From Halocatena pleomorpha (lineage in GTDB: Archaea; Halobacteriota; Halobacteria; Halobacteriales; Haloarculaceae): a DNA stretch of 45,551 nucleotides. The position numbers and the translations under genes were made by a program. Each line of letters starts with the position of its first letter. Position 1 is the first letter of the stretch. Positions 4,520-37,246 of the stretch are shown piece by piece. Location: contig NZ_RRCH01000036.1 in the NCBI RefSeq assembly GCF_003862495.1, positions 1-45,551 on the forward strand, read 5' to 3'. The notes beneath the pieces were generated by a model. It ran no database searches. It had not been told where the DNA came from and worked only from the letters and a program-made list of their open reading frames with translations.

Positions 4520-4534
4520 TAGTGTATTCTGTGG

Positions 4535-18417: not shown

Positions 18418-19257
18418 ATGACCCTCATATCCGACGGAGGTGACGTTCCTCTTCCATCGTTGTCTGGCCAATTCTCGCCAGATGAAGTCAATATGGATCT
18501 AACGATGTGCGGCCTTCTCGTTGACCGGGCTGAGGAACTGGCTCGACTCTATGCAGATCTGGGAAACTGGAACGACGTGAAGCATATCTGGTTCGACGAG
18601 CGTCTTTCGAATCGGAGCACGCGGGAGAGTTCGCAGAAAATATTTCGTATCCTGACATCTCGATTCAAGAACGCACCGACAGCACTTCCGAATCCAAGTC
18701 GTCTCCCCAACGTGTTCGAGCACTGTGAGACGACACGAGATAAGGCACAGATCCTCTACCTATATTTTGTTTCCGACGATGCCTTGGTTCGGTACGTCGT
18801 TCACGAATACAGTGCTCGTCTCGCTCGCGAGGAGTCGAAACCACTGAACTTCTCTAACGAAACCCTCCAGAACATCCTCAACGGACTCACGTATTCGGAT
18901 GGGAGCAGCTTCGATTATGCAGAATCGACGACAGAACGGTGGTGTGAAGGAATCCGATCAGTGATGCGTAAGATCGATGTGCTCAAAGAGCAACAAACAG
19001 TGATGCGTTCCATCCCATCGATCAGCACTGTGCCACTTCTCGTAGCGATGGACTATTCCTACGAAATTAGTGATGATGAATGGATCACGGCCCCACGAGG
19101 ATTGCTGTACCTCTTCCAACCGGAGAAACGCTGGGAAGAGCTGTTTGACCGCGCTGCCACCACCCCTGCCTGGGAGTATCGCGAACTCCACGGTAACCTG
19201 AATCTCCGTCCCACCGAAAAAACGTATTCGTGGATCAACAGTGGAGGTGACAATTGA
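18418..19257 (+). CDS. brxA: BrxA-like protein (DUF1819), first gene of the BREX locus
   Basis: BrxA is a small helical DNA-binding protein found in most BREX systems. The product (279 aa from the ATG at 18418; 289 aa from ATG 18388) has the expected order: CGLLVDRAEELARLYADLGN, then RSTRESSQKIFRILTSRFK, the LYLYFVSDDALVRYVVHEY helix, and WCEGIRSVMRKIDVLKEQ. It is longer than typical BrxA (about 200 aa) because of a C-terminal extension. Its stop overlaps the brxC1 ATG, after the strong Shine-Dalgarno GGAGGTGA (19243-19250) located at its own end. Confidence 0.75.
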   Translation: MTLISDGGDVPLPSLSGQFSPDEVNMDLTMCGLLVDRAEELARLYADLGNWNDVKHIWFDERLSNRSTRESSQKIFRILTSRFKNAPTALPNPSRLPNVFEHCETTRDKAQILYLYFVSDDALVRYVVHEYSARLAREESKPLNFSNETLQNILNGLTYSDGSSFDYAESTTERWCEGIRSVMRKIDVLKEQQTVMRSIPSISTVPLLVAMDYSYEISDDEWITAPRGLLYLFQPEKRWEELFDRAATTPAWEYRELHGNLNLRPTEKTYSWINSGGDN

Positions 19258-22200
19258 TGGTCGACGCGAGTTGGTTTGAGGACCTTCCAGAAGATTTCGA
19301 GGAATCAGTTCGTATCGACAGGGATGAACGTGATCATCGTGAACGCGCTATCCAGTCATACCACATGACGGCGGACTCCCAGCGCTTTATTCGAGACTTC
19401 GTCGACCGGATGCTCGGAAAGGAGGACAATATGCGAACAGGGTCGAACTATTGGCTCTATGGCTATTACGGCAGCGGGAAGAGCCACCTTCTGACTGTCC
19501 TCGACGGGCTGCTTGACTCCGACTGGCTCAATGGGCGATACGAGGACGTCTGGGACGACCTTACGCAGGTAACAGAAGACGACAGTGTAACTCAGTTGTG
19601 CGACCACTGGCGCACGATCCACAACGAGTACAACATAATTCCCATCTCGGTCAATCTCCTCAAATATCAAGGGCAAAAGCAGAGAAGTTTCAGCGAAATC
19701 GTTCTCAGACATGCTCATCAGGATCCAAATCTGACTGGGGTTGAAGACGACATTTCAAGGGGACTCTCTTCGCAACTCGATGTTGCGTACTTCGAGAAAT
19801 GGTTCCGGACGACCGACGCGTGGTCCGAGCGCCAGACTCGTGCACAAGATGCACTCGCGACTGTCGCCACCGGATCTGGGGGGTACAACTGGAATTCAGA
19901 GAATCTGTGGACAGACATCCAAAAATACAACGCACTGGCGGAGGTAATTCTCCCGACACTCTTCGAAAAAGCCAACGGAACCCGGGATGGGTATACGGAC
20001 CTCCAACCCTCGGATATTGATCCAGAGGAGGTGGTGACACGACTGAATCAACTGCGAGTGGAGCGGGAGGAGGAGTTAGAGAAACCGGTGAAGCTGGTGT
20101 TGCTTCTCGACGAAGTGAGTCTCTTTATCGGGACTGACTTCGAACGCTTGACCGAACTCCAGACGCTCGCAGAAAATATCGACGACATCGGCGGTGGCGA
20201 CATCCAACTCGTCGCGACTGCTCAAGCCAAGATCGAAGACGTCCAGCCGAAGTTCGCCGCCCACGGTGCTGATTTTAATATCGTCAAAGACCGCTTTCCG
20301 CACCGTTACCAGCTACCCAGTAAGCACGTTGGCGACATCGCAAAGCGGCGTCTGTTCGAGAAGTCCGCCCACGGTGAGGCCCGAGTTAGTGAGATACTCG
20401 ACACGGCCTCGGTGAAACCAACTGAATCGCTGGTTTACAACGAAATCAAGCAGAACACGAAACCGCCGCTCGATAGCATTGACGACGACGAACTCGTCGA
20501 GTTCTACCCCTTCCTTCCGTATCACGCCCCCTTGTTCCTCGAAATATTGTTCAATCTCAGGCAGGAAGCCCCAGATCCCGCAAAATCGATCTTCTCAGGA
20601 ACCGCTCGCGCGATTCTCGCGCTCATGCACAATCTCCTTCAGGGCTGGGTTGAGGATGGAAAATCAGACCACATCATCACCGTGGTCGATTTCTATGAGC
20701 TGATCAAACCAGAGCTTCGTGAAATACTCACACAGGATGTGCGCGTTATCGAGGGAGCGGATGCGATCCGTGGAATCGTTGACGAGGTCGAAGACGGTAC
20801 CCTCGAAGAGTTCGACCTTGATGTGGCGAAGGCGGTGTTGTTGCTGCAGCATGTCTACGACATCGTCCCACTGAATGAGGGGAACATCGCCGTCTCCGTA
20901 ATGGCTGACCTCAACGGGCAGTCGTGGATCAGTACGCAAAATCGAGTCGAAGAATCGCTCAACCGGCTTCAGAAATTCATTCGCCCAACTGAGGACGAAT
21001 CTGGCGCCAGATATCGGTTCGCTACGCAGGAAGAACGACTCATTTACGATGACACGGAAGCGAACGAGGAGAACCCGGACTGGGAAGCCATTCTCCATAC
21101 ATTGGATGAGTATCTCTGGGGGCGAATCATTCAAGACCTTTCCCTCCCGGAGTCCGTCCCGTATGGAGCGTCTGGCGATGAATATCCCGTTGCATACGAG
21201 TTCAGTCTCGACGGGGTAGACTTTGAGACGACCACGGAAGCCGACGGAAGCTTAGAGGTCCTCACCGCAGTTCAGGGTGTTCATCCCGATTACTCGCCAC
21301 AAAACGGGGATGAAGAGACTCTCTACTGGGAGATCGATACGGATGGGCTCGACGATCTTCGGAAACACATCATCGAGTGGTGGGCACTTCGAGATGCAAT
21401 TTCGACACACACTGCACCACCAGCTGTCAAACGTGATCTCGAACGACGAGCCAGTGCTGTCAGAAGCAAGCTCGTTAGCGTGATGCAGAGTGGTTCCTAC
21501 ACCGTGAAAGATCGAACGGGTATCAGGGGTCTATCAACGGCAGTGGAGACTGCGGTCGATGTCGGGTACCCAGATGATTTCCATCCGATGATGCTTCAAG
21601 TGACCGAGGATCGTCTGCAGGAACTCGCGGAGCTTTCCACTGAAGATCCACTGCCAGCATGGGCACACACGATCCAAGTGCCGTCTTCGGAGCCAGCCGC
21701 GAGCCAAGGGAAGAAAACGATACAAAGCAACGTGATGGCGCTTACTGGACGGCAGCTGAAGGACAAAGAAGACGGTCTCAACATGAATACGGTTCTCGAT
21801 GGGATCACTAGAAAGAAGCCGTTCTACGATGACGCCCGCCCCGCATTGTGCGCCATCATCTGGGGTTTCTGTCGCAAGGGACGGCTCGTTCCTGTCGACG
21901 AAAAAGGGAATACGCTCGAAAACGCGGTCGTGCTCAATCAGAACCAACTTCCGACAACGAGACTGAAACTTCTTCCACGCAAACCGATCGGAAAGCTCCT
22001 CGAAAAAGGCGGGTTCAAAGAAACCACGGAGACAGTTGCCGACGGGCTGATCAACCTTCAGGAAGCGAATCAACAGCTCCATTCAGCGCTCACTGGACTC
22101 CGAGAGGACATCCAACTGGTTGCAGACACTGACATCCGTTCAGATGCTATCGAAACCCTGCTCGATTCTCTCACCGACGAATTATCCGACCAGATTGACG

Positions 22201-22976
22201 CCACCTCCACCCGGCTCGCTGTCGTCAGGTCACAAGGTGACGGGCTCGGAGACGCGATTGAACAGACCAACGAAGGACAGGAATGGCTCGACGAAGTCGC
22301 AGATGTCTGGAATCGCCGGCTCGTGTCCCTCTACCGCTTCGATGTGGAGCTCACCGTCGGTGAGTGTGAGTTCGAATGGATCGATGAGGAAACCCAATCG
22401 GTAGTGATGGAGCAACGTGAGACACTCACGACGTTCGGCGGGAATTGGTGGACGACTGATGGATGGAACGTGTTGGTCGGGGAAACGACCACGGGGCTTA
22501 GCGACGAACTCCAGCGTTCGTGGAACGAGTACGTCAACAAACAGGGTCTCTCTTCGTTCGTCGCTCGCCTCGAAGAACATCCGTGGATCGTTCCTGCAAC
22601 GGAGCTTCCGATGAGTGTGCAACCAGCGTTTGAGCGGACGTACATCACGCCGCTCCGCGAACGTCGGCGCTGGTACGAAACTATCGCGGAGACAGTCTTA
22701 GCACTCGACGCCGATGACGAAGATACGCTCATTTCAGCGGCAGATGACATCGCCGGCGTGCAACCTCGTACAGACGCTACTGACGACGATATCGATGTAC
22801 TAGAGTCCAGACTCGAACGTCTGTCGACAATCGTCGGCAATCAAGCCCCCGAGGATGTAGACCAGATCGGCGCCCTCCCAGATGATCGGCATGCCATCAG
22901 CCAGCGCCTCGGACGGCTCATCGAGAACCGGGAGTTGGATATCGAGCGGGTTGATTCGGGAGTGATCATTCGATGA
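19257..22976 (+). CDS. brxC: BREX ATPase BrxC/PglY, first copy
   Basis: BrxC/PglY is the large AAA-type ATPase (DUF499/DUF6079-like) of BREX. The 1239-aa product has Walker A at about residues 69-76 (GYYGSGKSHL) and Walker B at about 280-287 (VLLLDEVSLFIG), with a long alpha-helical C-terminal half. I chose the ATG at 19257, which overlaps the brxA stop (TGATG) and has GGAGGTGA six bases upstream, over the in-frame TTG at 19254. The end overlaps brxB. It is only distantly similar to the second copy at 23560, so the two probably have different partners. Confidence 0.92.
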   Translation: MVDASWFEDLPEDFEESVRIDRDERDHRERAIQSYHMTADSQRFIRDFVDRMLGKEDNMRTGSNYWLYGYYGSGKSHLLTVLDGLLDSDWLNGRYEDVWDDLTQVTEDDSVTQLCDHWRTIHNEYNIIPISVNLLKYQGQKQRSFSEIVLRHAHQDPNLTGVEDDISRGLSSQLDVAYFEKWFRTTDAWSERQTRAQDALATVATGSGGYNWNSENLWTDIQKYNALAEVILPTLFEKANGTRDGYTDLQPSDIDPEEVVTRLNQLRVEREEELEKPVKLVLLLDEVSLFIGTDFERLTELQTLAENIDDIGGGDIQLVATAQAKIEDVQPKFAAHGADFNIVKDRFPHRYQLPSKHVGDIAKRRLFEKSAHGEARVSEILDTASVKPTESLVYNEIKQNTKPPLDSIDDDELVEFYPFLPYHAPLFLEILFNLRQEAPDPAKSIFSGTARAILALMHNLLQGWVEDGKSDHIITVVDFYELIKPELREILTQDVRVIEGADAIRGIVDEVEDGTLEEFDLDVAKAVLLLQHVYDIVPLNEGNIAVSVMADLNGQSWISTQNRVEESLNRLQKFIRPTEDESGARYRFATQEERLIYDDTEANEENPDWEAILHTLDEYLWGRIIQDLSLPESVPYGASGDEYPVAYEFSLDGVDFETTTEADGSLEVLTAVQGVHPDYSPQNGDEETLYWEIDTDGLDDLRKHIIEWWALRDAISTHTAPPAVKRDLERRASAVRSKLVSVMQSGSYTVKDRTGIRGLSTAVETAVDVGYPDDFHPMMLQVTEDRLQELAELSTEDPLPAWAHTIQVPSSEPAASQGKKTIQSNVMALTGRQLKDKEDGLNMNTVLDGITRKKPFYDDARPALCAIIWGFCRKGRLVPVDEKGNTLENAVVLNQNQLPTTRLKLLPRKPIGKLLEKGGFKETTETVADGLINLQEANQQLHSALTGLREDIQLVADTDIRSDAIETLLDSLTDELSDQIDATSTRLAVVRSQGDGLGDAIEQTNEGQEWLDEVADVWNRRLVSLYRFDVELTVGECEFEWIDEETQSVVMEQRETLTTFGGNWWTTDGWNVLVGETTTGLSDELQRSWNEYVNKQGLSSFVARLEEHPWIVPATELPMSVQPAFERTYITPLRERRRWYETIAETVLALDADDEDTLISAADDIAGVQPRTDATDDDIDVLESRLERLSTIVGNQAPEDVDQIGALPDDRHAISQRLGRLIENRELDIERVDSGVIIR

Positions 22977-23563
22977 CAAACTCACCGTATCTCGCATTCA
23001 AAGAAAAACTGTGTACGTTCGCCGATGGACAGGCCGGAATCCGGAATCCGTTTGTCATTGCAGCAGTCGACCCATCGATCGAGCATCGGGTTACAGATCG
23101 GCTCAGTGCGTGGACGACAAACGCTGACGAAGCACCAGCCATCGAAAACGGAGCCTCCGTGCAGCTGATCTGGCTTGACGAACTCCTCCCAGAGACGAAA
23201 GTGCACAATCTCTCGGTAGCATTGGGAGGTAAAACGACCGCCGAGCGCATCGAAGAGACGATGCAAGATCGCCTAGCCGAGGAACTCGTCGAAGAGATAA
23301 TCGTGAGCGAGATCGACGACGATCGACTGCAAACCCAACAACACATCGTACTACTCCTCAATCTTGGGAGCCTCTATCCGTTCACCCGTGCATCCGAACT
23401 CCTCGACGAACTCGATCGTCGCAACGTCAGATCCACCATTGGCATTCCGTTCCCCGGAGACATCGTCGGTGGGAAGCTGAGTTTCTTCGGCGGGGAGTCG
23501 AGGCACTACTATCCAGCCCATCAGATTGATGTGCAGATTCGAGAGGTGCATCTCCAACAATGA
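22973..23563 (+). CDS. brxB: BrxB (DUF1788)
   Basis: BrxB is a small conserved BREX protein of unknown biochemical role. The 196-aa product has the family's ending, TIGIPFPGDIVGGKLSFFGG followed by SRHYYPAHQIDV, and a central IVLLLNLGSLYPFTRASELL. It lies between the two brxC genes with ATGA overlaps at both ends, so all four genes of this block are translationally coupled. Confidence 0.88.
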   Translation: MTNSPYLAFKEKLCTFADGQAGIRNPFVIAAVDPSIEHRVTDRLSAWTTNADEAPAIENGASVQLIWLDELLPETKVHNLSVALGGKTTAERIEETMQDRLAEELVEEIIVSEIDDDRLQTQQHIVLLLNLGSLYPFTRASELLDELDRRNVRSTIGIPFPGDIVGGKLSFFGGESRHYYPAHQIDVQIREVHLQQ

Positions 23564-26500
23564 GTATCAAGAGGCTATTCCGGAGGGATCCGACACGAGA
23601 ACTCGAAGAAGTCAAGAAAGTAAACGCCAGAGAGCGAGCAGAAACCGACGTCGCAGAGTTCCACGAAACTGAAAGCGCAAAGCGCGCTCTTACCGAACTC
23701 GGAGGCGTCATCCAAACACATCCTGGACAGGCGGCTCGCTTTCTCTACCTCAACGCGACGTTCGGGTCTGGGAAGACACACCTGTTGAAACTGATCGGTC
23801 TCGTTGCTGACCGCGAATCCGAGTTCGCTCCTCTGGGTGAAAAGCTGGCAGAACGGTGGCCTGGCTTCGACAACTTAGCACAGTCGATTGACGCCTCGCA
23901 CGTCGACCGGCTCAAACCCGTGTTTTTGAATCTCTTGGATCGCGATGCCTCGAAAGAGGCACCACTCCCGTTTCTCATCTTCGAGGCAATCGGACGCGAA
24001 CTCGGGTATCCGACTGATCCGAACTGGCTGCTTGAGTGGGCCTGGACTGTTGATATGGAATACGACGGTGTCTGGCACGCACTCACTACGACCGAGCAGA
24101 ACGGCCAGACCTTCGAAGATGTCCGCGAAGAACGCGCATCGTTGCGACGCTGGCTCTACGAGACGCTACCGTCATTGCCAGAGACAAGTGGGACCAATCT
24201 CGAGAGCAAATCCGGCGTCAAAGCATCCATTGAGCGAGCAGAGGAGGAGGTGAACCCAGAGTCGTTCGACCCGAAAGAGTTGGTCAAGCGGGTGGAAACT
24301 GTCACCGACGCAGTAAGCGAAAGTGGATCACAGACCGAGTTGCTGCTCGGACTCGACGAGGTCGCGCTCTTCGTCGGCGATAGCCGTCACCGCTACCGGG
24401 AGTTCGAGGAGACGATGGAAGCGCTCCAGCATGGCCCGAATCCAGTCGTCGTCACGACTGGGCAGTATTCACTCCCGGTTACGCGAGAGAGTCTCATCGG
24501 TGAGCCGAGAGAAAATCACTGGACGTACCAGCAGGTCCCACTCAAAGGCGCTGACACGGAAATTATCGTTCGGAAACGGTGGTTGCAGAAGGACAGCGCG
24601 GGCAACGATCGGATCACCTCGATCGTCTCATCGATGTCCGATCTCTCTTTAGAGACGTACTCGCCAGTCAGGAGTGCCAACCCTGACCCGGTCGAGTCGT
24701 ATCCATTCCGTGAGTACGATTTGACCTTGCTTCGAACGGTAATGCAGGAGTTGATCACACAGGGGAGAGAGACCGACCGGGACTACATCCAAGGACGAGC
24801 GCTGCTCGTGTTGGTTCGGTCGCTCTTCACGAAGTTCGGTTGGGCGACGGCCGACGAGGGGGCACTCGTTACCTGGGATGAGCTGTTCGACTTGCTGGTC
24901 GAGGAAACAACGTACGTCCCGCTGTGGGTGCAGGAGATGCTCGACAACACGCTGATTCCGACCTTTGACGGCGATGAGAGCGTCTGGGAGGTCCGGGTAT
25001 CGAAAGCGTTGTACCTCATCAATCAGACGCCGGCAGTTCCAACAACGCCAGAGAATCTGGGTCGACTGATGCTCGATGATACCCACTCGTCTGTCGATGA
25101 GACAATCGAAGAGACCGAATCGGCGCTGAACACGCTCGTAGACAAGCGAAAGGTGCTCTCCGAGACCAACGACGAAGGGGACGACGTGTACACACTGGTC
25201 TCGGAGGAACAGGAGAGTATTCTCAGCCGAGCACAGACCGAAGCTGAGCGGATTTCGCCCCATCAGCTCTCTGCGTGGCTGGAGGCTCGACTCCGGGAAA
25301 ACGACGCCTTCCTCCGTAGCGATAGTAGCCTGCACGAAGCAGCTGTCGGCGACGAACGACTCGTTCCACTTCGATACGAGTATTCCATCCTCGATCCTGT
25401 CGGTCGAGCGCCAACGACGGAATTCGATGCCGTCCGAATCCGTGTGGTAGCCGACGATCCAGAGACAGTTACTGAGCAGGTCAACACGTGGAAGGACGCA
25501 AACGACGGCCGAGCAGGTGGAGAGCACATTCTCATCGCGATTACGGTGCCTGAGACGACGCTTGAGAGGATTCGGAACGTCCTCGGGATGGATAATGTCC
25601 TCGATGGAGAGACACACGAGGAACTCGAACGGGAACATCGAACGGAGAAACGTCGGTTGAAATCGTCTGTAAGTGATCTCCTTGAAACTGCGTCCGTCCA
25701 CACTGTTCACGAGTATCGCGGTGAACGCCCAACTGTTCTCGAAACGGTTGTCCAAGACCAGATTCAGTCCGTCTTTGGGTCGACCCGGAAGGTACTGTCG
25801 CGCCCTCTCATCGAGGTCGACGACGCGAAGGAGATAGCGAAGTTCTTCCGAGGCAGTGGCGAGTGGCCGCTGGCCGATAGCGATGCGGTCATGTTGGGGA
25901 TAGACACGTCGGATCACCGGATCGGGAACGATGGCTGGTGTCGGGTATTCATCGACGAATACGAGCCACAGAGTGCGGTCGATGTCGAAACGCTACTCCA
26001 GCAAACGCGGACCGCAAACGGTGACTATCGGGGGACGCCCCAAGAGTCGATCGCGGCATTGCTCATCACGCTTGCAACATCCAACGAGAAGGTTGCTCTC
26101 AAACAAGACACCGACTACGTCACCGATCCAGCAGCGATTGGACGCCAGGTGCGTACGAAGAGCGGTCTCACCTCGTTGCAGGTGCGGTTCGGCGTCGATA
26201 CGATCAATCCGAAGGAAATCCGGACGGTCGTGTCGACTGTCCTTGGCGATGATCCGGACGGCGACGACCCCGACGAATGGGTTGCCGAACTTGCGACTCG
26301 GGTTGACGAACAGAGCGTCCTCATCAAGCGAACGTTCAAGGGCGTCTCCCGGGAGTTCGATGTCTCTCTGGACGCGCTGGAAGCCGCACTAACACCCGCG
26401 TACAGTGGCGGAGCGATCACTACATCGGATCTCGTCGAAGATGGCGTCAAATCGGATGCCGAAACGTTCGCAGACGCGCGTGAACTCTTCGCCGTCGAGG

Positions 26501-27375
26501 ATGGTGAGACATCTCTTTGGGCGCAGTTTTCAGAGACCCTAGCGGTGGTAGAGTCGTTGTATCCCAGTGCGACGATCACGTCGGGAATGCAGACCACGGC
26601 TGAAAGCGGCTCCGTGCCCACGAAGGAAACGCTAACAACTCGGATTGTTGATGCGACCGGCCACCGTGTCGATGTCCTGTCCGATCAGTACCGGCAAATC
26701 ACAGGCGGGACGATCGACGGCGCAGATCCGATAGAAATCTGTGCGGATCTCACGACGTGGGTGCGAGAGAACGAATTGTCGGTTCGAACGCTGCTTGATG
26801 ACGCTACAGACACGTTCAGTGGCGTTTCGTTCGACAGCCTTGAAACGGTGTTCGAAACAGCGTGGGCTGGTGACCAAATCGAGGAGGAGACGCTCGTTAC
26901 CTCCAGTGTGCGCCAGCAGGCGAAGACGTACGACAAGGTCCGTGAAATTCTCGATGGCGATCCAAGTCCGTGGACACAGTTGGAATCAGCCGGGGAAACC
27001 CTTCGTGCAGAACATCCGGACTCACCCACGACCGAGGCGGTGGAGACCGTGCTCGGTTCATCCCGACCACCGTCACTCCAGCGGGTACAGCAGCTCATCG
27101 ATGAAGCGGACGATCCGAAGCCACCGGGAGCCGATGACGATGTCTGGGCGGAACTGCAGCGTGTCGCCGAGGCCCTCCGTCAGGAACTGCCGAACGCGAC
27201 GATCACCGATGACGTGACCGCGGCTGTGAACGCCGACGAGCGTCCGACAGAAGAACGGTCGGAAGAACTCCTCTCGGAAGCGAAAACGATCTTGGACCGG
27301 ATGCGGACAATCCAAGAGCAGTTGGATGGTCTTGGTGATGACGAGATTGTGCTCATCGACAAAGCTGAACAATGA
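23560..27375 (+). CDS. brxC: BREX ATPase BrxC/PglY, second copy
   Basis: The 1271-aa protein has Walker A at about residues 66-73 (NATFGSGKTHLL) and Walker B around 263-268 (LLGLDEVALFVGD). The N-terminal order (ELEEVKKVNARERAETDVAEF) matches the BrxC/PglY family, with a long acidic helical C-terminus rich in repeats of the type LETVFETAW. The presence of two BrxC proteins around brxB is a feature I associate with type 5 BREX. It is the last gene of the first coupled block; 611 bases follow before pglX. Confidence 0.92.
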   Translation: MSIKRLFRRDPTRELEEVKKVNARERAETDVAEFHETESAKRALTELGGVIQTHPGQAARFLYLNATFGSGKTHLLKLIGLVADRESEFAPLGEKLAERWPGFDNLAQSIDASHVDRLKPVFLNLLDRDASKEAPLPFLIFEAIGRELGYPTDPNWLLEWAWTVDMEYDGVWHALTTTEQNGQTFEDVREERASLRRWLYETLPSLPETSGTNLESKSGVKASIERAEEEVNPESFDPKELVKRVETVTDAVSESGSQTELLLGLDEVALFVGDSRHRYREFEETMEALQHGPNPVVVTTGQYSLPVTRESLIGEPRENHWTYQQVPLKGADTEIIVRKRWLQKDSAGNDRITSIVSSMSDLSLETYSPVRSANPDPVESYPFREYDLTLLRTVMQELITQGRETDRDYIQGRALLVLVRSLFTKFGWATADEGALVTWDELFDLLVEETTYVPLWVQEMLDNTLIPTFDGDESVWEVRVSKALYLINQTPAVPTTPENLGRLMLDDTHSSVDETIEETESALNTLVDKRKVLSETNDEGDDVYTLVSEEQESILSRAQTEAERISPHQLSAWLEARLRENDAFLRSDSSLHEAAVGDERLVPLRYEYSILDPVGRAPTTEFDAVRIRVVADDPETVTEQVNTWKDANDGRAGGEHILIAITVPETTLERIRNVLGMDNVLDGETHEELEREHRTEKRRLKSSVSDLLETASVHTVHEYRGERPTVLETVVQDQIQSVFGSTRKVLSRPLIEVDDAKEIAKFFRGSGEWPLADSDAVMLGIDTSDHRIGNDGWCRVFIDEYEPQSAVDVETLLQQTRTANGDYRGTPQESIAALLITLATSNEKVALKQDTDYVTDPAAIGRQVRTKSGLTSLQVRFGVDTINPKEIRTVVSTVLGDDPDGDDPDEWVAELATRVDEQSVLIKRTFKGVSREFDVSLDALEAALTPAYSGGAITTSDLVEDGVKSDAETFADARELFAVEDGETSLWAQFSETLAVVESLYPSATITSGMQTTAESGSVPTKETLTTRIVDATGHRVDVLSDQYRQITGGTIDGADPIEICADLTTWVRENELSVRTLLDDATDTFSGVSFDSLETVFETAWAGDQIEEETLVTSSVRQQAKTYDKVREILDGDPSPWTQLESAGETLRAEHPDSPTTEAVETVLGSSRPPSLQRVQQLIDEADDPKPPGADDDVWAELQRVAEALRQELPNATITDDVTAAVNADERPTEERSEELLSEAKTILDRMRTIQEQLDGLGDDEIVLIDKAEQ

Positions 27376-27459
27376 CCCGGTAGCCGGTCGATCACACAAT
27401 TCTAGAGATGTACTCCCGTGAGTTATTGCTGTAGGAGTGATCACACATCACACTAGGGT

Positions 27460-27846
27460 ATGAGCGCAAAGGGCCGGCTCCGGCGGTTCGAGAACAGAGC
27501 GCAACTACTGCGCTATATCGCCGAAGAGACCGGCACAGACATCGATACGCTGTGGGACAAATACGAGGCCCAAATCGAATAGAGCAGCTTTTAACGCGTA
27601 AACGATACTGATCTCGATAGCTCGTTCACCATCGATTCTGAGTCGATTTCACTGAGTCCCGTCGGTGAATACGAAGTCGCAGACATCGAGGGGCCAGTGG
27701 TCTTCATTGGAGATACGGCGTACCGTTCCTCTGGACTTCAGGAAATGGCGGTAGAGGAGATCCGGGGTGCCCTCAACCAGCTTTCTGATCGGGGGCAGCA
27801 GAATCTTTTGTCCACGAGTGTGTTTCTGTGTGTTGGTATTCAGTGA
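27460..27846 (+). pseudogene. Small gene inside the BREX locus broken by two adjacent in-frame stops
   Basis: An ATG at 27460 opens a 40-aa frame (MSAKGRLRRFENRAQLLRYI, AEETGTDIDTLWDKYEAQIE) ending in TAG at 27580-27582. Two codons later comes TAA (27592-27594). The same frame then continues in protein-like sequence to TGA at 27844-27846 (TIDSESISLSPVGEYEVADI, GPVVFIGDTAYRSSGLQEMA). The whole would be about 128 residues. Either one small gene has been killed by two stops, or the 40-aa ORF is a real small protein followed by a remnant. I do not recognise the family. Confidence 0.5.
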
Positions 27847-27986
27847 CAGTTGCTTCAGCGAGTTGTAGATGAGAATTTGTTCCTACTATTTAAATATTGA
27901 AAGAAACTTGGAAGATCGGACTAGGAGGCATTAACAACATTAAAGACGCTGCTGTCGGTTGAAATTACCATACAGGTCATTGTCGC
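27847..27986 (+). promoter_or_regulatory. Likely promoter of pglX-pglZ-brxHII
   Basis: The sequence becomes AT-rich, with TATTTAAATATT at about 27888-27899 as the TATA candidate, roughly 90 bases before the pglX ATG. An AGGAGG-like element (about 27922-27928) lies too far from the ATG to serve it. This suggests that the second BREX block has its own promoter and a leader of about 60 bases. Confidence 0.5.
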
Positions 27987-30900
27987 ATGGAAAATGATTC
28001 TCTCTCTCAACAGAAGGTACAGTTGGATAAGGCCGAACGCGAACAGCTCGAAGAGATCGTTGCTGGGATGCGAGAGCGGGTCGAAGACAACGTCCGATTC
28101 CAACTCACACAGAACGGATTGGACGAGAAACCGGATGATACGGATGCACTAAATGACGACATCTCGTCGCTTGTCGAGGCGATCGAACTGGAGGCTGTCG
28201 ATGGAGACGACTGGGAGAAGGGATTGGAGCAGTATATCACGAGCGTTGGTTACACGATCGTCAATCGACTGGCTGCGCTGCGCTGTATGGAGGTTCGCGG
28301 GTTCATCGACGAGGAGGTCACTGTTTTCAAAGAGAACGGGCTAACACCCGCCGCCGAGACGCTCGTCCACGAGGAGTTTTTGCTGGAGGACGAAGCTATC
28401 CTTGAGGCGTACCATCGTGCGTGTGACGCCCTCGCTGCGGAGATCGAGATCCTCTTCGATCGCTCGTCGGCGTACAGCTTGGTTGATCCCGACGACGATA
28501 CCTTTGGGGAACTCTGTGGAATGCTCGATGAGATTCCTGATGCGGTCTGGCGGGCTGACGACGTGCTGGGGTGGGTGTACGAGTATTACAACCGTCCGGT
28601 CGTGGAGGCGCTCGACGCGAAGAACACGCTCGAACCGGAAGACGTCGGTCCGGCGAATCAGTTCTACACGCCACACTGGGTCGTCCGGATGCTCGCTGAT
28701 AATTCGCTCGGGAAGCTCTATCTCGAAGCGACTGGGAAGGAATCATCCGTTCCTGCTCCCGAGGAACTCTCGCCCGAAGAGCGGAAAGAACGCCTTGTTA
28801 CGCCCGAGGATGCGCCTGACGTGTCGTCGCTCTGTACGTATCTCATTCCCGACGAGGAAGACCAGCAAGCGCCGTCGTTCGACCACCCCTCCGAGCTTCA
28901 GGTGATCGACCCGGCGTGTGGGAGCGGTCACTTTCTCCTCTATGCGTTCGACATTCTGGAGCGGATCTGGTGGGCCGAAACGGATCTGGATCGCGGCGAG
29001 ATCCCAGCGAAGGTGCTGGAGCACAATCTGTACGGCGTGGACATCGACCTGCGCTCCTGTCAACTGTCGGCGTTCAACCTGTATCTGAAGGCTCGCACGC
29101 GGGCGGAAGCCGAGGATAATGCTAGTTTCGAAATGCCGAATCTGGGAATCGTCTGTGCGGACGCTCGGGTGGCAGAGGTCGAGACGGCCGTCGATGTTCT
29201 TGATCAGATCACTGGTGACGAGACGGGCGTTCGGGAGGCGATCGGAGAGGTCATCGAGGAATTCCAGACGACCGAGGCGCTCGGGAGCCTACTCGACGTG
29301 CAAGGCACGCTCGCTGAGGAGTTCGAAAGCGGTCAGTCCGACGTGCTAGAGTGGGGCGGTGAGGGTCCGCAGACATTGCACGAGTTTCTGAAACGACTCA
29401 GAGCGGCCGTCGAGGAGCAAACGGCGGACTCGTTTGGCGAGCAGAACCTCCGGAGCTTTCTGCATCTGCTAGTGGTGCTGACGCAGGACTACGACGTGGC
29501 GCTGATGAATCCGCCGTACGGGTCAAAAGGGCGGATGCCGAATGATGTCAAATCATACGTTGAGGTGCACTACGACTACACCACCGAATACTACATCAAC
29601 TTTTTTGAGACCTGTGGTCGTCTTGTTCAGACAAGCGGACGTATTGGGATGCTCGTTCCACGTTCGTTCATGTTCCTCAAATCCTTTCAGAACTTCCGCG
29701 AAGACTTCATCGGTGGCCGTGGGTCATTCGACTTTCTTGCTGAGTACGGTATCGACATCCTAGACAATGCGACGGTTAGAACGGCAGGGACGGTGCTTCG
29801 CTCGGATGGCGAAGGCAATGATAAAGGGACATTTATTCGACTAGATGACGTTGAGAAGGGTGAGAAAGAACAGTCCTTCTTACATGCTGCATTTGTAAGC
29901 GAGTCCGAAAATGGTGTTCGTCGTCGCTTTACCCGTCCTGTGTCTGAATTCGAATTCGTTCCTGGTTCCCCTCTCACTTATTGGGTTTCGCAGGATCTGA
30001 GGAAGCTCTACGACTCGAATGTCGTACTTGACGCCCCAAACGCAGGCCTCGATAAGAGTAGCGTGGGAAACATCAAAGTCGGACTACAGACGGGTAACGA
30101 TGGACGGTTTACACAGGCCTTCTGGGAAGATGAAGGAGCGAATTGGGTCCCGCTAGCCAAAGGCGGTGAAGATTCTTGGTTGCTACCAAGAATTCGAAAA
30201 ACTGTCCTTTGGGGAGATAATGGCACCGAGGTGACACGGTATTCCGGGTCATATCCTCGTAACACAGCATACTATTACCGAGAGGGAAACACTTTCAATC
30301 GGGTGAAGGAAAGCGGTCGTCGCTTCGGATATCTTCACCCACAATCTGTATTCGGTGACAAGGGACCGGTTATTTTTGCAGATGTCGACCAGTGGACAGT
30401 TCTATCCTTTACCAACAGTCGCCTCTTCACTTACCTGATGCTCGCTCAGACTACTGAGCGGATGTGGGAGGTCGGCCAAGTCTCAAAAATTCCGTGGCGG
30501 AAGGAGTTAGAGGAGATTGACGAACTCAAGTCGCTCTCGAAGGAGGCGGTCGGTTACCTTGTCTCGAAGCGCCAGTACGATTTCGTGTCGCCGCACTACA
30601 ATGGGCCAGTACTCCTTGATGTCCTCGGCGTCAACGATTCCCTGCCGCAGTATGACCATCCCCATCGCGGCCTCCGCGAGGATCTTGATCTCAACGATCC
30701 GGTGGATACTGTCGACCGGTCGGCGTCGCTGGAGGAATTCGGGATGACAGCAGCACGACACTTCGAACGCATCGAATCGGATCTCCAGTCGTGTGCGGAC
30801 GCTATTGACGAGGCAATCTTCGACTCCTTCGACATCACCGACGAGCAGCGCGAGACCATCCTCCAAGAGATCGCACTCCGAACCAACGAGGACCCCCGCG

Positions 30901-32183
30901 AGCGCGAAGAACACGATCCCGAGTCGATCACTGAACCGTCGGACGAATTCTCGGAGATGGTGAAGGATCTCCTGCTCCATCTCACTCTCCGCATCGTCCA
31001 TGAGGACGACGACGGGATCGTTCCTCTCTCAGATGTCGACAGCGAGGACGACCTACTTACCCGCCTCGAAGACGAATTCGAACGGATATTCGGCGAACAC
31101 GCGGACGAACGCCTCGCAGAGGTCGATCAACTCCTTGGAAGCCAAACAGCCGACGAAGAGGCGTACCCGAACCTCCGAGAGTGGCTCGAAAGCGACCTCT
31201 TCGACTATCACGTTTCGACGTTCGACCGAACGCCGATCCTCTGGCGGTTCACGACTGAGCGCCTTGTCTCCGATCCGGAGGGCGAAGGATTTGCTTGCCT
31301 CGTCGACTACCACCAACTCGACGCGAACGTTTTCGACCGACTCCAGAACCGCTACCTCGAACCGCGAAAGGCACTGCTCCGCGAACGCCGGAGCGCGGCC
31401 AACCGCCGACGGGGCGACGACTCGCTCTCGGCCTCCGAACGAGCAGCGGCCACAGAGGAGTACGCGCGATGTGAGAGCGGTCTCGAACAGATCGGCGTGT
31501 TCGAAGACCGGCTCGCAGAACTCGCACAGCCCGCCGCCCGAGACTGGCCCGAGGAAAACCAGACGCTCGCCGAGGCGGCAGCCGAGCAGGTCGCGGCGTT
31601 CCGCAAGCGGACAGCCACCAGACTGAACGCGCTCGACACGCTCGCCGCTCTCGATGACACCGACATGGCCGACCTGTTCAGCCCCACCTTCTACGAGACC
31701 GTTCAGGAAAACCGTGAGGAGTGGCTGGACGCCCTCGACGCCTTGGAAACCGCCTTCGAGACATACGCCGAGGATGGTTCCGAACCCGTCGAAGCTCATC
31801 TCTACGATCTCTTTGAGTATTACGACGACCTCGTCGGATCCACCCACTACGCGAGCAACGGCATCCTCTTCATGACCTACTACTTCGACAAATTCGAGGA
31901 TCCCGAACAGACACAGATCGGCGACAAGGGAATCTCCGAACGCCAGCGCCTCCTCTCCAAGTTGGCAAGCGATCTCGATGACTATCAAGAACTCGCCAAC
32001 GAGATCGCAGATGCCTGCGACGAGATCGCAGCCGACATCCCTTCGGACTGGTCCGACCGTGCGCTCTCAGAGATAACGACCGCCGGCTACCAGCCCAACC
32101 ACAAGCACGGCGTCGAGATCAACATCACACCGCTCGCACAGGCCGAAATCGTGCCGAAAACCGTCGACGACAACGTCCTGTGA
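27987..32183 (+). CDS. pglX: BREX adenine-specific DNA methyltransferase PglX
   Basis: PglX methylates adenine at a non-palindromic host motif, protecting self DNA and allowing BREX to see phage DNA as foreign. The 1398-aa protein has NQFYTPHWVVRMLADNSLG, the SAM-binding motif I DPACGSGHFLLY at about residues 308-319, NLYGVDIDLRSCQLSA, and the catalytic NPPYGSKG at about 507-514, followed by a target-recognition region in the middle and a helical C-terminus. Length fits PglX. The frame is intact. Its TGA overlaps the possible GTG start of pglZ. Confidence 0.95.
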   Translation: MENDSLSQQKVQLDKAEREQLEEIVAGMRERVEDNVRFQLTQNGLDEKPDDTDALNDDISSLVEAIELEAVDGDDWEKGLEQYITSVGYTIVNRLAALRCMEVRGFIDEEVTVFKENGLTPAAETLVHEEFLLEDEAILEAYHRACDALAAEIEILFDRSSAYSLVDPDDDTFGELCGMLDEIPDAVWRADDVLGWVYEYYNRPVVEALDAKNTLEPEDVGPANQFYTPHWVVRMLADNSLGKLYLEATGKESSVPAPEELSPEERKERLVTPEDAPDVSSLCTYLIPDEEDQQAPSFDHPSELQVIDPACGSGHFLLYAFDILERIWWAETDLDRGEIPAKVLEHNLYGVDIDLRSCQLSAFNLYLKARTRAEAEDNASFEMPNLGIVCADARVAEVETAVDVLDQITGDETGVREAIGEVIEEFQTTEALGSLLDVQGTLAEEFESGQSDVLEWGGEGPQTLHEFLKRLRAAVEEQTADSFGEQNLRSFLHLLVVLTQDYDVALMNPPYGSKGRMPNDVKSYVEVHYDYTTEYYINFFETCGRLVQTSGRIGMLVPRSFMFLKSFQNFREDFIGGRGSFDFLAEYGIDILDNATVRTAGTVLRSDGEGNDKGTFIRLDDVEKGEKEQSFLHAAFVSESENGVRRRFTRPVSEFEFVPGSPLTYWVSQDLRKLYDSNVVLDAPNAGLDKSSVGNIKVGLQTGNDGRFTQAFWEDEGANWVPLAKGGEDSWLLPRIRKTVLWGDNGTEVTRYSGSYPRNTAYYYREGNTFNRVKESGRRFGYLHPQSVFGDKGPVIFADVDQWTVLSFTNSRLFTYLMLAQTTERMWEVGQVSKIPWRKELEEIDELKSLSKEAVGYLVSKRQYDFVSPHYNGPVLLDVLGVNDSLPQYDHPHRGLREDLDLNDPVDTVDRSASLEEFGMTAARHFERIESDLQSCADAIDEAIFDSFDITDEQRETILQEIALRTNEDPREREEHDPESITEPSDEFSEMVKDLLLHLTLRIVHEDDDGIVPLSDVDSEDDLLTRLEDEFERIFGEHADERLAEVDQLLGSQTADEEAYPNLREWLESDLFDYHVSTFDRTPILWRFTTERLVSDPEGEGFACLVDYHQLDANVFDRLQNRYLEPRKALLRERRSAANRRRGDDSLSASERAAATEEYARCESGLEQIGVFEDRLAELAQPAARDWPEENQTLAEAAAEQVAAFRKRTATRLNALDTLAALDDTDMADLFSPTFYETVQENREEWLDALDALETAFETYAEDGSEPVEAHLYDLFEYYDDLVGSTHYASNGILFMTYYFDKFEDPEQTQIGDKGISERQRLLSKLASDLDDYQELANEIADACDEIAADIPSDWSDRALSEITTAGYQPNHKHGVEINITPLAQAEIVPKTVDDNVL

Positions 32184-32185
32184 CC

Positions 32186-34336
32186 ATGCCAGCGACCAAG
32201 ACCCTCCCCCAGTGCGCTCACGACGCCATCGAGAGTGCCATCGATGAAGCCCCAGACGAGGAGCCGGTCATTCTCTGGTGGGACGACGGCGGCTACCTCC
32301 GTGACATCGTCCGAAACGCGAGCAAGCAACTCGGCTGTGCGTTCCAAGCCGTAGAACAGACGCCCCTCGAACTTCGCACAGAAGCACCACGAGACCGCGC
32401 TGTCTGGTACGTCCCACACGCCAGCAGCGACGACGTGGACTGGTTCAAAGACGTCGAGCACACCGGCAACGTGATCGAACAGCATATCGGGAAGCTCGCT
32501 GCCCGCTGTTTCGAGACCGACCGTCTGCAAGCTGCGTCCATTCGGACAGCGTACGAGGACGCCGATGATCGGGAGACCGTCGCCAAAACGCTCTATGAAG
32601 AACTGAACGGCGACGGTGGGCTTCCATCACTCCAAGGTCTCCAGACGAAGATCGTTCTCGACGGCCACGATGACCCGGTGCAGTTCGTGCTCGAACACGG
32701 CACGGAACAGCTTCCCAGCGGTGACGACCTGACCAAGCTTCAGGGACTCTTGGTCGACAACGGCATGACGCCCGTCGACGGCGAACACGACGCCCAGACC
32801 ATCGTCGACCGAACGAGACGCTGGGGGGTCGCTGAGTGGCTCGTCGATGAGGGCTTGGACAAGTCCGTGCTGCCAACTGAGTACCAGCCCGAACCACACA
32901 CAGGGATCGGCGTCTCCAGACCCGAACTTCGCTCTGTGCTGAGCAAAACCGAACGCAAACAAGAGTTGGCTCGCGTCTATCTCGACCCTACACAGCGGTT
33001 CTGGCACGACATCCTTCGCACCCACGACGATCCGTGGGACCTCGTGGACTGTCCGGTCGACGCTTCGCTCGAACACCGCCTCTGGGAGGAGTGGACGCGG
33101 TCGTTCTACGCCGGCGACTACGAACAGTGTGCAACTCAGGCAAAACGACGCCACGAACGCCTCAACGCGACCTACGGCGACGTTCCGTGGACAGAACTCT
33201 GGGATCAGGCCATCGATATTGCGACGCTTGCGAACGAACTCGAAACCTGGGAAGAAACCGGTGATACTGGTGACGTCGTGAAGCTGTACGGCGACGTAGA
33301 AGACGGAACGTGGCAGATCGATAACGCTGTGTTCAACCTCATTGTCTCCGGTGAACCGGAAGCCGCGCTTCCAGAAGAGCATCCTGCAACTACGAAGCTC
33401 GATGATCTCCGTTCGTCGCTCGTTGAATCCAGATATCTAGACTACCTCACCGATCTCGGTGAACTCGTCGCAGAGCAGATTGACGCCGGATCCCCGTTCG
33501 TCGGCGAGAATCACGTCCACCAGTTTTTCGCTGAAGAACAGGAACACCTCCAGAGCGGCCAGAGCGTCGCGCTATTCATTGTTGACGCACTGCGCTTCGA
33601 TCTGGCTCACGAACTCGCAGAGTCCATCCGGTGTGAGCTTCCCCAGCTCGAAATAGACGAGAGCAAGTGGGTTAGCACGCTGCCCTCTGACACCGAGTTC
33701 GGGAAGGCAGCGCTCACCCCCGGCAGCAAGTTCAGCTTCAACATCGAACTGCAGGACGGAGAACTCGTTCCCGAACGAAACGGACGCAAGATCACGAACT
33801 ACTGGCGACAGACGCTCCTCGAAAACGAGGGATGGACGTACATTGTGCAAGACGACGAGTACGAGAGCGGTTGGGGGCAGTCCCGCGTCGCTTACTACTG
33901 GAACGACATCGATGAAACCGGCGAGACGGAACTCACGGACTTTGAAGAACTGTTCAGCGACCGGATCGACGCTATCTCTCGGATCATCTGTGAAAAACTC
34001 GGCAACAGCGGGTTCGACCGCGCCTACATCCTCTCGGATCACGGCTTCGTCTCACTCCCCCGACACGTCGACATCGACGATCTGCATCCACCGAGCGACG
34101 CTGAGAAAGTGACTCGTCGGTGGATCGCCGGCGAAGATCTCGACGAGGACGCACCCGGCGTCCTGTTGGGCGAAGACGCACATCTGGGCTACCTCAACGA
34201 CGATACCAAAATCAGCATCCTGACGGACCCGATTCAGCGTTTCAGGAATCAGGGGCTTCCAGATGCTCGATTCTACCATGGGGGCGTCCTCCCACAAGAG
34301 TTCGTCTTGAACTTCATCACAATCACACAGGAGTAA
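32186..34336 (+). CDS. pglZ: BREX alkaline-phosphatase-fold protein PglZ
   Basis: PglZ is the signature BREX protein with an alkaline phosphatase superfamily domain. In the 716-aa product the domain lies in the C-terminal half: LFIVDALRFDLAHELAESI at about residue 463 (metal Asp), VSTLPSDTEFGKAALTPG (the T-E-G substrate loop), and YILSDHGFVSLP at about 614 (metal Asp-His). The N-terminal half is helical. I take the ATG at 32186; a GTG at 32180 overlapping the pglX stop is also possible. Six bases separate it from brxHII. Confidence 0.93.
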   Translation: MPATKTLPQCAHDAIESAIDEAPDEEPVILWWDDGGYLRDIVRNASKQLGCAFQAVEQTPLELRTEAPRDRAVWYVPHASSDDVDWFKDVEHTGNVIEQHIGKLAARCFETDRLQAASIRTAYEDADDRETVAKTLYEELNGDGGLPSLQGLQTKIVLDGHDDPVQFVLEHGTEQLPSGDDLTKLQGLLVDNGMTPVDGEHDAQTIVDRTRRWGVAEWLVDEGLDKSVLPTEYQPEPHTGIGVSRPELRSVLSKTERKQELARVYLDPTQRFWHDILRTHDDPWDLVDCPVDASLEHRLWEEWTRSFYAGDYEQCATQAKRRHERLNATYGDVPWTELWDQAIDIATLANELETWEETGDTGDVVKLYGDVEDGTWQIDNAVFNLIVSGEPEAALPEEHPATTKLDDLRSSLVESRYLDYLTDLGELVAEQIDAGSPFVGENHVHQFFAEEQEHLQSGQSVALFIVDALRFDLAHELAESIRCELPQLEIDESKWVSTLPSDTEFGKAALTPGSKFSFNIELQDGELVPERNGRKITNYWRQTLLENEGWTYIVQDDEYESGWGQSRVAYYWNDIDETGETELTDFEELFSDRIDAISRIICEKLGNSGFDRAYILSDHGFVSLPRHVDIDDLHPPSDAEKVTRRWIAGEDLDEDAPGVLLGEDAHLGYLNDDTKISILTDPIQRFRNQGLPDARFYHGGVLPQEFVLNFITITQE

Positions 34337-34342
34337 TGAGCT

Positions 34343-37246
34343 ATGAATGATCTCGCATCCGGAGACGCGATTCTCCTCAACGATCAACCCGCTGAGGTCA
34401 TCAAGACATACTCCGTCGGTGATCTCGATTATCTCAGGACCTACGTCGAGAACGTCGGTGTGAAAACCGTCTGCGTCGACGACGTAAACATCGAGTCAAG
34501 GCGAGAACAGCTCGGTACACTCGATACAGCGATTGCAGAGCAACTCCACCCAGATCACGATGCGGTATCGGCCGAGTGGTTCGACTTACGCTCACAAGCC
34601 CTCCAGCTTCAAATCGCACACGAACAAGGGCAACTACTCAGTATCTCAAACTCGCTGGTTCGTCTCGAACCGTACCAGCTCGCCGCAGTCAACTGGGTCA
34701 TGCAGAAGCTCCGCCAGCGAGCGCTCATCGCCGACGACGTCGGACTGGGAAAGACCATCGAGGCGGGGCTTATCCTCAAAGAGCTCACTGTACGCAACCG
34801 TGCGGATCGGGTGTTGTTTGTCGTCCCAGCCCATCTCCAGAAAAAGTGGATCCGAGACATGGACCGCTTTTTCGATATCTCGCTCACTCCGGGCGATCGC
34901 CAGTGGGTCGAGGGCGAGCGGCGACGGCTTGGCGAGGCAGCCAACATCTGGAACCAGGACCACCAGCAGATGGTCACAAGTATGGCGTTTCTGCGTCAGG
35001 AAGAGTTCCGCGACGAACTCGACAACGCGTTCTGGGATGTTGTCGTCGTCGATGAAGCACACAAGACAGCCAAGCGAGGCGAGTCCCCGAGCAAGACTTC
35101 GAAGATGGTCGAACGTGTTGCCGACAACTCCGACTCGCTGTTGCTCCTCAGTGCGACGCCACACGACGGCAAAGGGGATGCCTTCGGTTCTCTCATCGAG
35201 TATATTGATCCGTTCCTCGTTGCAGAAGATCAAGAGCTTTCAAAGGAAGCGGTCGACCGCGTGATGATGCGTCGTGGCAAGCAGACGATCTACGACGATA
35301 CCGGTGAACGAATTTTCCCGAATCGCGAGGTTGGGACGATCCCTGTCGAGCGGACACACGAAGAGCGGCAGTTCTACCAGGCAGTCACCGAGTACGTCAA
35401 ACACGTCTACAATCGCTCAGAGCAGCTCAACGAACCTGCAGTCGGGTTCGCGATGGCGCTGATGCAAAAACGCCTTGTGAGTAGTATTGGAGCGATTAAA
35501 GCCACACTAAGCCGCAGGCTTGCGAATCTTGTCGACCAGCAATCCACTGCAACCTCGCTTTCTGAAGGAGCTTCAGCCTATCTCGAAGGCGAAGATCTCG
35601 ACGAAGCAGACAAGCAGAAAGCCGAGGAAGAACTCGCAGGTCTCACCATCACCGAGAGCGATGCTCAACTCGAAGAAGAAATCGAAACGCTACGTGACCT
35701 CGTCTCGCTTGCTGAAGGTATTCCAGTCGATTCCAAGGCCCAGAAGGTTCGTCGCTACATCCAGCAATTACTTGAGGAGAACCCGAACGAGAAGGTACTA
35801 CTCTTTACAGAATACCGTGACACACTCGATTACATCCTCGGTCTCGTGAAAGACGAACCGTGGGCAGACGAAATTCTCGTGATCCACGGTGACATCGATA
35901 AAGGGGATCGAGCGAAGATCGAAGACGAGTTCAATCACGGGCAGTCTCGACTGCTCTTCGCGACAGACGCAGCAAGCGAGGGGATCGACCTGCAGCACAG
36001 TTGCCACATCATGATCAACTACGAGTTGCCCTGGAATCCCAACCGGCTCGAACAGCGGATCGGCCGTCTCCATCGGTATGGCCAAGACAAGGAAGTGAAG
36101 GTGTGGAATTTCACGTTTGAGGACACTCGAGAGGGTGAGATCTTCGAGATGCTCCAGAACAAAGTCGAGAACATTCGGGGGAAGCTTGGGAACACCGCCG
36201 ACGTCCTCGGGGTGCTCGACGACATCAATGTAGACTCACTCATCATGGAGTCCATCCAGAATGAGGAGCCTGCGAGTGTGACCAAAGAGGAACTTGAGGA
36301 ACTCATCGACGAGCGCCAGCGTACACTTCAAGAGTGGTACGAACGCAGCCTCATTGACACGAGTACGTTCGACCAAGAAAGTCGGGAGAAGATTCAAGAA
36401 GTAATGGACGAGTCAGAGGACGTCTACGGGACCGAGGCCGACATTCACGAGTTCGTGGAACGCGGTGTCGAGGCCCTGGGAGGAGATGTCGAGAAGGCCG
36501 GGAACAATCTCTACAGAGCCCAACTCCCTCGCCCCCTTCGGCAAGCGGACGAAGAATACGGTCCGTTCACGTTCAGTCGAGACTTCGCTATGGACCACGA
36601 TGGTATCGACTACGTCTCGCCCGACGATGATCTGGTCCAGCGACTCATGCAGCAAGTGCTAGAGAGTGAGCACGGCGATGTTGGATTGAAGCTTCTCCCG
36701 TTCGTCGACGCATCAGGAATTGCGTACAATTACCGTGTGAAGTTCGAAGACGGAACAGGCGAGGTCATCCGCGAAGACATGATCCCTGTGTATGTCGATG
36801 CCCGCCACCACGATCCCCAACAGCGAATAGGGCAGCGTATTGTTCAGGGTGATAGTATCAAAGGATCGCCCGACACTGATCGCGTACGATCGCTCATTCA
36901 GAGTCAGGAGCAGTTGCGAGCAGCGGCTGATCGTTATATCAGTCAGCAGGTCGCGTCTCTGAGAGAGGAACTACATGAACGCCGTAGAGAGGAAACCCAG
37001 CAAGAACTGGATGACCTCAAGGAGTATGCCAAAGCAGAACGCAGACGGATCGAGGAGTTCATTGAAGACTACGAACGGAAGGCAGAGGCCGGATCGAATA
37101 TGGATATCGCGATTCGGGGACAACAAGAACGCCTCAACAAACTTGAACAGCGTATCGAAGACCGGCGTCAGGAATTGCAACGGAAGGCTCAGGTCATCTC
37201 ACTCGCGCCCGACGTAGAGAACATTTGCTTTGCTCTTCCGGTCTAA
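34343..37246 (+). CDS. brxHII: BREX helicase BrxHII (SNF2/DEAH-type)
   Basis: The product is a superfamily-2 DNA/RNA helicase like BrxHII. Over 967 aa it has Walker A at about residues 131-138 (DDVGLGKTIEAGLIL), DEAH box VVVDEAHKTAKR near 235, SATPHDGKGDAF near 269, and the helicase C part LLFTEYRDTLDYI, ATDAASEGIDLQHSCHIMIN and LEQRIGRLHRYGQ near 570. A long coiled-coil C-terminus (residues about 860-950, rich in RRREE/LEQRIEDRRQEL) follows. It is the last BREX gene; decayed ADP-ribosylglycohydrolase sequence begins immediately after its stop. Confidence 0.9.
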   Translation: MNDLASGDAILLNDQPAEVIKTYSVGDLDYLRTYVENVGVKTVCVDDVNIESRREQLGTLDTAIAEQLHPDHDAVSAEWFDLRSQALQLQIAHEQGQLLSISNSLVRLEPYQLAAVNWVMQKLRQRALIADDVGLGKTIEAGLILKELTVRNRADRVLFVVPAHLQKKWIRDMDRFFDISLTPGDRQWVEGERRRLGEAANIWNQDHQQMVTSMAFLRQEEFRDELDNAFWDVVVVDEAHKTAKRGESPSKTSKMVERVADNSDSLLLLSATPHDGKGDAFGSLIEYIDPFLVAEDQELSKEAVDRVMMRRGKQTIYDDTGERIFPNREVGTIPVERTHEERQFYQAVTEYVKHVYNRSEQLNEPAVGFAMALMQKRLVSSIGAIKATLSRRLANLVDQQSTATSLSEGASAYLEGEDLDEADKQKAEEELAGLTITESDAQLEEEIETLRDLVSLAEGIPVDSKAQKVRRYIQQLLEENPNEKVLLFTEYRDTLDYILGLVKDEPWADEILVIHGDIDKGDRAKIEDEFNHGQSRLLFATDAASEGIDLQHSCHIMINYELPWNPNRLEQRIGRLHRYGQDKEVKVWNFTFEDTREGEIFEMLQNKVENIRGKLGNTADVLGVLDDINVDSLIMESIQNEEPASVTKEELEELIDERQRTLQEWYERSLIDTSTFDQESREKIQEVMDESEDVYGTEADIHEFVERGVEALGGDVEKAGNNLYRAQLPRPLRQADEEYGPFTFSRDFAMDHDGIDYVSPDDDLVQRLMQQVLESEHGDVGLKLLPFVDASGIAYNYRVKFEDGTGEVIREDMIPVYVDARHHDPQQRIGQRIVQGDSIKGSPDTDRVRSLIQSQEQLRAAADRYISQQVASLREELHERRREETQQELDDLKEYAKAERRRIEEFIEDYERKAEAGSNMDIAIRGQQERLNKLEQRIEDRRQELQRKAQVISLAPDVENICFALPV

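Follow-up and report, generated by a model that had tools for sequence, protein, structure and literature searches.

A haloarchaeal BREX type 5 locus with two co-inherited BrxC ATPases, only one of which carries the canonical arginine finger

An open problem in BREX is how its BrxC assemblies change over between methylation and restriction. The arginine finger is the residue that normally triggers ATP hydrolysis in a neighbouring subunit. BREX type 5 was reportedly described in Goldfarb 2015 with two BrxC genes, and two are present in all relatives with a complete locus analysed here. The relevant passages of two papers describe type 5 as restricted to Halobacteria (PMC9240713), and as occurring in 160 taxa and grouped with type 1 (PMC12839542). 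For type 1, the sections of PMC13326643 that deal with Acinetobacter BrxC describe an ATP site made of K78, E269 and R430 in cis together with K326 and R330 as trans fingers, and report that the charge reversal R330E blocks BrxC–BrxC association. Among the papers searched, only PMC13326643 and PMC12839542 name both BrxC and an arginine finger, and the relevant passages of neither mention a second BrxC. Our literature search, with subscription papers (Goldfarb 2015 included) outside its scope, found no published report of a finger-less second BrxC.

The window considered here, a stretch of 45,551 nucleotides from Halocatena pleomorpha (contig NZ_RRCH01000036.1), carries at positions 18418-37246 a complete BREX type 5 locus, a class already known, with seven intact genes. 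All seven ORFs are uninterrupted and lie on the plus strand, with neighbours overlapping or almost abutting, the sole exception being brxC2 and pglX, which stand 611 bp apart. The features are as follows.

18418..19257, plus strand: brxA, encoding BrxA (PDLC02456, 454 bits, residues 11-288 of the longest ORF; Pfam BrxA, 25.3 bits, cut-off 23)
19257..22976, plus strand: brxC1, BrxC AAA+ ATPase with arginine finger (PDLC02474, 2083 bits; aligned to the BrxC of PDB 9zdx; motifs given below)
22973..23563, plus strand: brxB (PDLC02467, 335 bits)
23560..27375, plus strand: brxC2, BrxC AAA+ ATPase without the finger (PDLC02473, 2082 bits)
27460..27582, plus strand: accessory 40-aa ORF in the brxC2-pglX gap (tblastn, 60-88% identity in L065, L070, L063, L105, L062 and L072)
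27601..27843, plus strand: truncated gene remnant in the same gap (full gene of 459-470 aa in L065, L070 and L105)
27987..32183, plus strand: pglX, predicted BREX-5 adenine methyltransferase (NF033454, BREX_5_MTaseX, 2430 bits, cut-off 900; PADLOC, 2365 bits)
32186..34336, plus strand: pglZ, BREX-5 PglZ of a metal-dependent phosphatase/nuclease family (NF033444, BREX_PglZ_5, 1138 bits, cut-off 250; PADLOC, 1157 bits)
34343..37246, plus strand: brxHII, Swi2/Snf2 RapA-like helicase of 967 aa (PDLC02504, 1921 bits, positions 2-967 of 971 in the model; SNF2 and Helicase_C)

The start of brxA was placed at 18418, in agreement with the preliminary description of this DNA, because the BrxA model matches the longest ORF only from residue 11 onwards, while brxC1 and pglZ probably start at the ATG codons at 19257 and 32186; BrxC1 residues are nonetheless numbered here from the TTG at 19254. 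PADLOC models span every BREX protein of the window almost full-length, PglX contains DPACGSG and NPPY motifs, and PglZ can be aligned with the PglZ of PDB 9nv3 over its LPSxT and HGG motifs. PglZ and BrxC/PglY, whose joint presence marks BREX in general, occur together, and the PglX and PglZ of type-5 families are accompanied by BrxA, BrxB, BrxHII and two brxC genes. We assigned the locus to type 5 because PglX and PglZ exceed the curated BREX-5 cut-offs and BrxL, the effector that marks type 1, is missing genome-wide (0 matches across the whole source genome).

The preliminary description of this DNA as a complete BREX system with two BrxC genes flanking brxB and no brxL is thus borne out, by PADLOC and NCBIfam BREX-5 models for the system and by PADLOC families PDLC02474 and PDLC02473 for the BrxC pair. 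The gene it called brxA-like encodes a true BrxA, and the profile search of each protein that it proposed places both large ATPases within BrxC/PglY at more than 2000 bits each, contrary to the refuting outcome that it had named. It did not identify the system as the recognised class BREX type 5. Its further claim that brxD is absent holds as far as the PADLOC scan of the 17 window proteins, in which neither BrxL nor BrxD is among the matches listed. The locus as such is ordinary, a further member of a recognised class, to which the finger asymmetry described below adds a class property.

On the same contig, positions 604-9643 of the window hold CRISPR type I-D effector genes (Cas3d, Cas5d/Csc1, Cas7d/Csc2, Cas10d and Cas6d) on the minus strand, together with a plus-strand gene for a Csa3-like CARF regulator; 15835-17070 (minus strand) encodes a TnpB-like protein with a Cas12f1-like TNB domain at a local GC peak of ~0.63. 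Directly upstream of brxA lies a UvrD-helicase C-terminal fragment (17503-18099); full UvrD-helicase and PD-(D/E)XK genes occupy the matching place on pJ7-1 of Natrinema J7-2 and are found downstream of pglZ in Haladaptatus. What is left of a second type-5 BREX system within the same genome (L097, 10135-10959 of G000:C17, minus strand) consists of a BrxC1 N-terminus that continues into a BrxC2 fragment and adjoins an Mrr-type endonuclease gene.

Across 391 genomes of the class, type-5 BrxC1 (at least 400 bits) was detected in 63 and BrxC2 (at least 300 bits) in 61, all of which also encode BrxC1; no genome has BrxC2 alone, and of the two with BrxC1 only, G034 is cut off where its contig ends and G314 is a fragment. 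The gene order brxC1-brxB-brxC2 is kept in all 51 fetched loci. In 46 of these brxA precedes brxC1; of the remaining five, L066, L067 and L101 stop at the end of a contig, and L063 and L096 yielded no brxA. In pairwise distance, BrxC2 tracks BrxC1 closely (r 0.993, 49 loci) and likewise PglZ (r 0.987, n=39), but not PglX (r 0.146, 29 loci), a discordance possibly inflated by the use of only the first pglX per locus and the exclusion of short ones. Because the distances of the core proteins co-vary and those of PglX do not, BrxC2 is part of the BREX-5 core and PglX behaves like an exchangeable module, although correlated distances amount to shared inheritance and are not proof of contact. In a tree of the AAA+ halves, BrxC1 and BrxC2 form separate clades (support 97 and 100, respectively) with mirrored subclades, a topology compatible with one old duplication, or with a pairing that preceded diversification of the class. 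The same block is present on Halobacterium salinarum R1 plasmid PHS3 and on Natrinema J7-2 plasmid pJ7-1; both BrxC proteins are labelled “hypothetical protein” in the plasmid records examined, so the pair is easily overlooked.

In a sub-clade with BrxC identities of 32-39% (L091-L096 and L098-L101), pglZ follows immediately after brxC2; in an annotated example of this arrangement, Haladaptatus sp. QDMS2 (L131), pglX and the helicase gene are located upstream of brxA in divergent orientation, and pglZ is followed by a MutH/Sau3AI-type endonuclease gene. The order X-Z-X, with a second pglX-like gene after pglZ, occurs in L088, L105, L115, L065 and L068, and this second gene usually belongs to another identity class than the first pglX. 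The source genome itself holds one full pglX gene. The interval between brxC2 and pglX ranges from near zero to more than 7 kb in relatives and is a cargo site, occupied in L072 by an Mrr-type endonuclease gene and in the window (27376-27986) by the 40-aa ORF, which is also conserved in six further loci among the fetched BREX-5 set, and the truncated remnant, whose full-length L070 copy has no Pfam match.

The low similarity of the two BrxC proteins, remarked on in the preliminary description, is real: they belong to different BrxC families and can be aligned by profile only, with 22% identity over the AAA+ half and C-terminal halves that are not alignable. A phmmer search of the PDB with BrxC2 found no BrxC, and the link of BrxC2 to BrxC comes from profile comparison, in which it aligns with the type-1 profile at a probability of 99.9 (E 9.5e-35). 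The ATP-site motifs can be placed in both proteins: Walker A K76, Walker B D286-E287, finger R347 and sensor-2 R452 in BrxC1, and Walker A K72, Walker B D266-E267 and sensor-2 R413 in BrxC2, where W321 takes the finger position. In an unbiased column scan of 51 AAA+ domains, comprising 17 BrxC1 and 17 BrxC2 (from 17 of the 52 available loci, the window included) and 17 type-1 domains (9 bacterial), all three groups keep the Walker A Lys, Walker B Asp-Glu, sensor-1 Thr/Gln and sensor-2 Arg without exception.

The finger separates them. R347 of BrxC1 is the aligned counterpart of Acinetobacter BrxC R330, and its column is the only one in the scan with an Arg or Lys invariant in BrxC1 and type 1 yet lost in BrxC2, where it holds Trp in 17/17. 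The motif DRF is present in all 60 unique BrxC1 regions (84 ORFs, 1 dropped), and the equivalent of R330 is kept in all 17 BrxC1 rows of the scan; DRF or GRF is found in 8/8 type-1 regions (11 unique, 3 misassigned BrxC2 excluded), and DRF in 0/56 unique BrxC2 regions spanning the site. The last count derives from 114 ORFs, 30 of them dropped for lack of a readable region, which yielded 59 unique regions, of which 3 were excluded because an early YPF match had cut them ahead of the finger site. A loose text pattern of the finger matched 2 BrxC2 sequences over the whole 560-aa stretch; limited to the region, the count gave one “RF”, in L099, that is not DRF.

Such a distribution would suit an obligate asymmetric AAA+ pair of BrxC1 and BrxC2, a directional hetero-ATPase, and as a complete explanation of the BREX-5 arrangement we give this reading somewhat better than an even chance. 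Several observations count against it. K326, the other finger residue of Acinetobacter, is not matched at the corresponding column of BrxC1, and AlphaFold models of the BrxC1 and BrxC2 AAA+ halves (10 and 13 sequences) reached a mean pLDDT of only 39 and 42 and were set aside as structural support for the pair. BrxC2 also has invariant arginines of its own in the 51-domain scan (R60, R384, R392, R420 and R502), any of which might be a finger that moved, leaving BrxC2 an ordinary, fully active BrxC. We regard such a relocation as decidedly unlikely, since the stretch from sensor 1 to the GADTE helix, which houses the finger in BrxC1 and type 1, has no position-conserved Arg or Lys in the BrxC2 rows, and since the BrxC2 loop, in profile alignment with type 1, is 4-5 residues shorter and carries the invariant Trp.

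The main rival to an asymmetric pair is that BrxC1 and BrxC2 form two homo-oligomers with separate duties, BrxC1 performing type-1-like ATP-driven work and BrxC2 acting as an ATP-binding, non-hydrolysing scaffold, for instance in methylation or at another DNA site. Their unalignable C-terminal halves make separate partners possible, their membership of distinct BrxC families points the same way, and hydrolysis by BrxC2 would be expected to slow without a finger. However, a Walker B Glu and sensor residues as invariant as those of BrxC2 would be unusual in a pure scaffold, and the co-inheritance of the two proteins is near-perfect, so that we consider this reading rather unlikely.

As for BrxB, the relevant section of PMC13326643 reports that Acinetobacter BrxB can bind the BrxC ATP face, where it offers R182 and excludes further BrxC. 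This residue, deduced to be the Arg of YYR from the chain numbering of PDB 9zll_E, is Arg in 7/7 type-1 BrxB (a bacterial sample of n=8, in which the Azotobacter sequence is unread at the site) and Pro in all 52 type-5 rows (P181 in the window). One could thus envisage that BrxC2 assumed the capping or adaptor role of a BrxB that has lost its finger, which would agree with the way Acinetobacter BrxB keeps out further BrxC. We think this very improbable, however: brxB is kept in 51/51 fetched loci, and PglZ, its best-known partner, is still present. An Arg four residues ahead of the lost one (R177) is retained in 51/52 type-5 BrxB and counts against the asymmetric pair. A candidate for a conserved BrxB-contact residue, D204 of Acinetobacter, was dropped from the comparison, as visual inspection showed no conservation of it even within type 1.

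Judged from these alignments, BrxC1 alone among BrxC1, BrxC2 and BrxB has a canonical finger. On the question posed in the preliminary description, whether the two BrxC proteins form a hetero-oligomer or have separate duties, the evidence leans, short of proof, toward an asymmetric hetero-oligomer. The analysis establishes the gene content, the co-inheritance, the retention of the ATP-binding residues and the loss of the finger, whereas the physical hetero-oligomer, its direction and any capping role are inferred, in the following scheme. PglX would mark host DNA, BrxA, BrxB, BrxC1, BrxC2 and PglZ would make up the sensing and restricting core, and BrxHII, by analogy with published type-1 biochemistry, may stand in place of BrxL. 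Both BrxC proteins would bind ATP, and only BrxC1 could give an arginine finger to a neighbouring ATP site; as the only protein able to offer one, it would complete the BrxC2 site as well as other BrxC1 sites. The finger-less back face of BrxC2 would then end or interrupt the stack, and the outcome would be a directed hetero-oligomer instead of the type-1 homo-oligomer. With both ATP sites kept invariant, the simplest arrangement would be a polar hetero-oligomer whose BrxC1 activates BrxC2. The more specific proposal, that type-5 BREX is powered by a hetero-AAA+ machine of BrxC1 and BrxC2 that is obligate and polar, with BrxC1 as sole finger donor among BrxC1, BrxC2 and BrxB, the latter two having lost theirs, is put forward tentatively, at a little less than an even chance.

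If this proposal is true, the polarity of the BrxC1:BrxC2 machine is written in the sequence and provides a natural dissection of BrxC idling versus restriction. A class in which BrxC is split into finger-bearing and finger-less subunits would make the question of switching approachable by haloarchaeal single mutants.

Clamp loaders, ORC and F1 are heteromeric AAA+ or rotary ATPases with unequal ATP sites, and they likewise assign the roles of finger donor and ATP acceptor to different paralogues, a likeness that we offer as analogy only. With known BREX type 5, the window locus shares the BREX-5 PglX and PglZ, BrxA, BrxB, BrxC and BrxHII, the lack of BrxL and the haloarchaeal distribution, and as far as compared there is no difference in gene content. 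With BREX type 1 of Acinetobacter and E. fergusonii, as set out in the relevant sections of PMC13326643, it shares the BrxB-BrxC-PglZ core, the BrxC AAA+ fold by sequence and the ATP-site residues; whereas type 1 has one BrxC with a finger, a BrxB with R182, and BrxL, the window encodes two BrxC proteins, one of them finger-less, a finger-less BrxB, and BrxHII.
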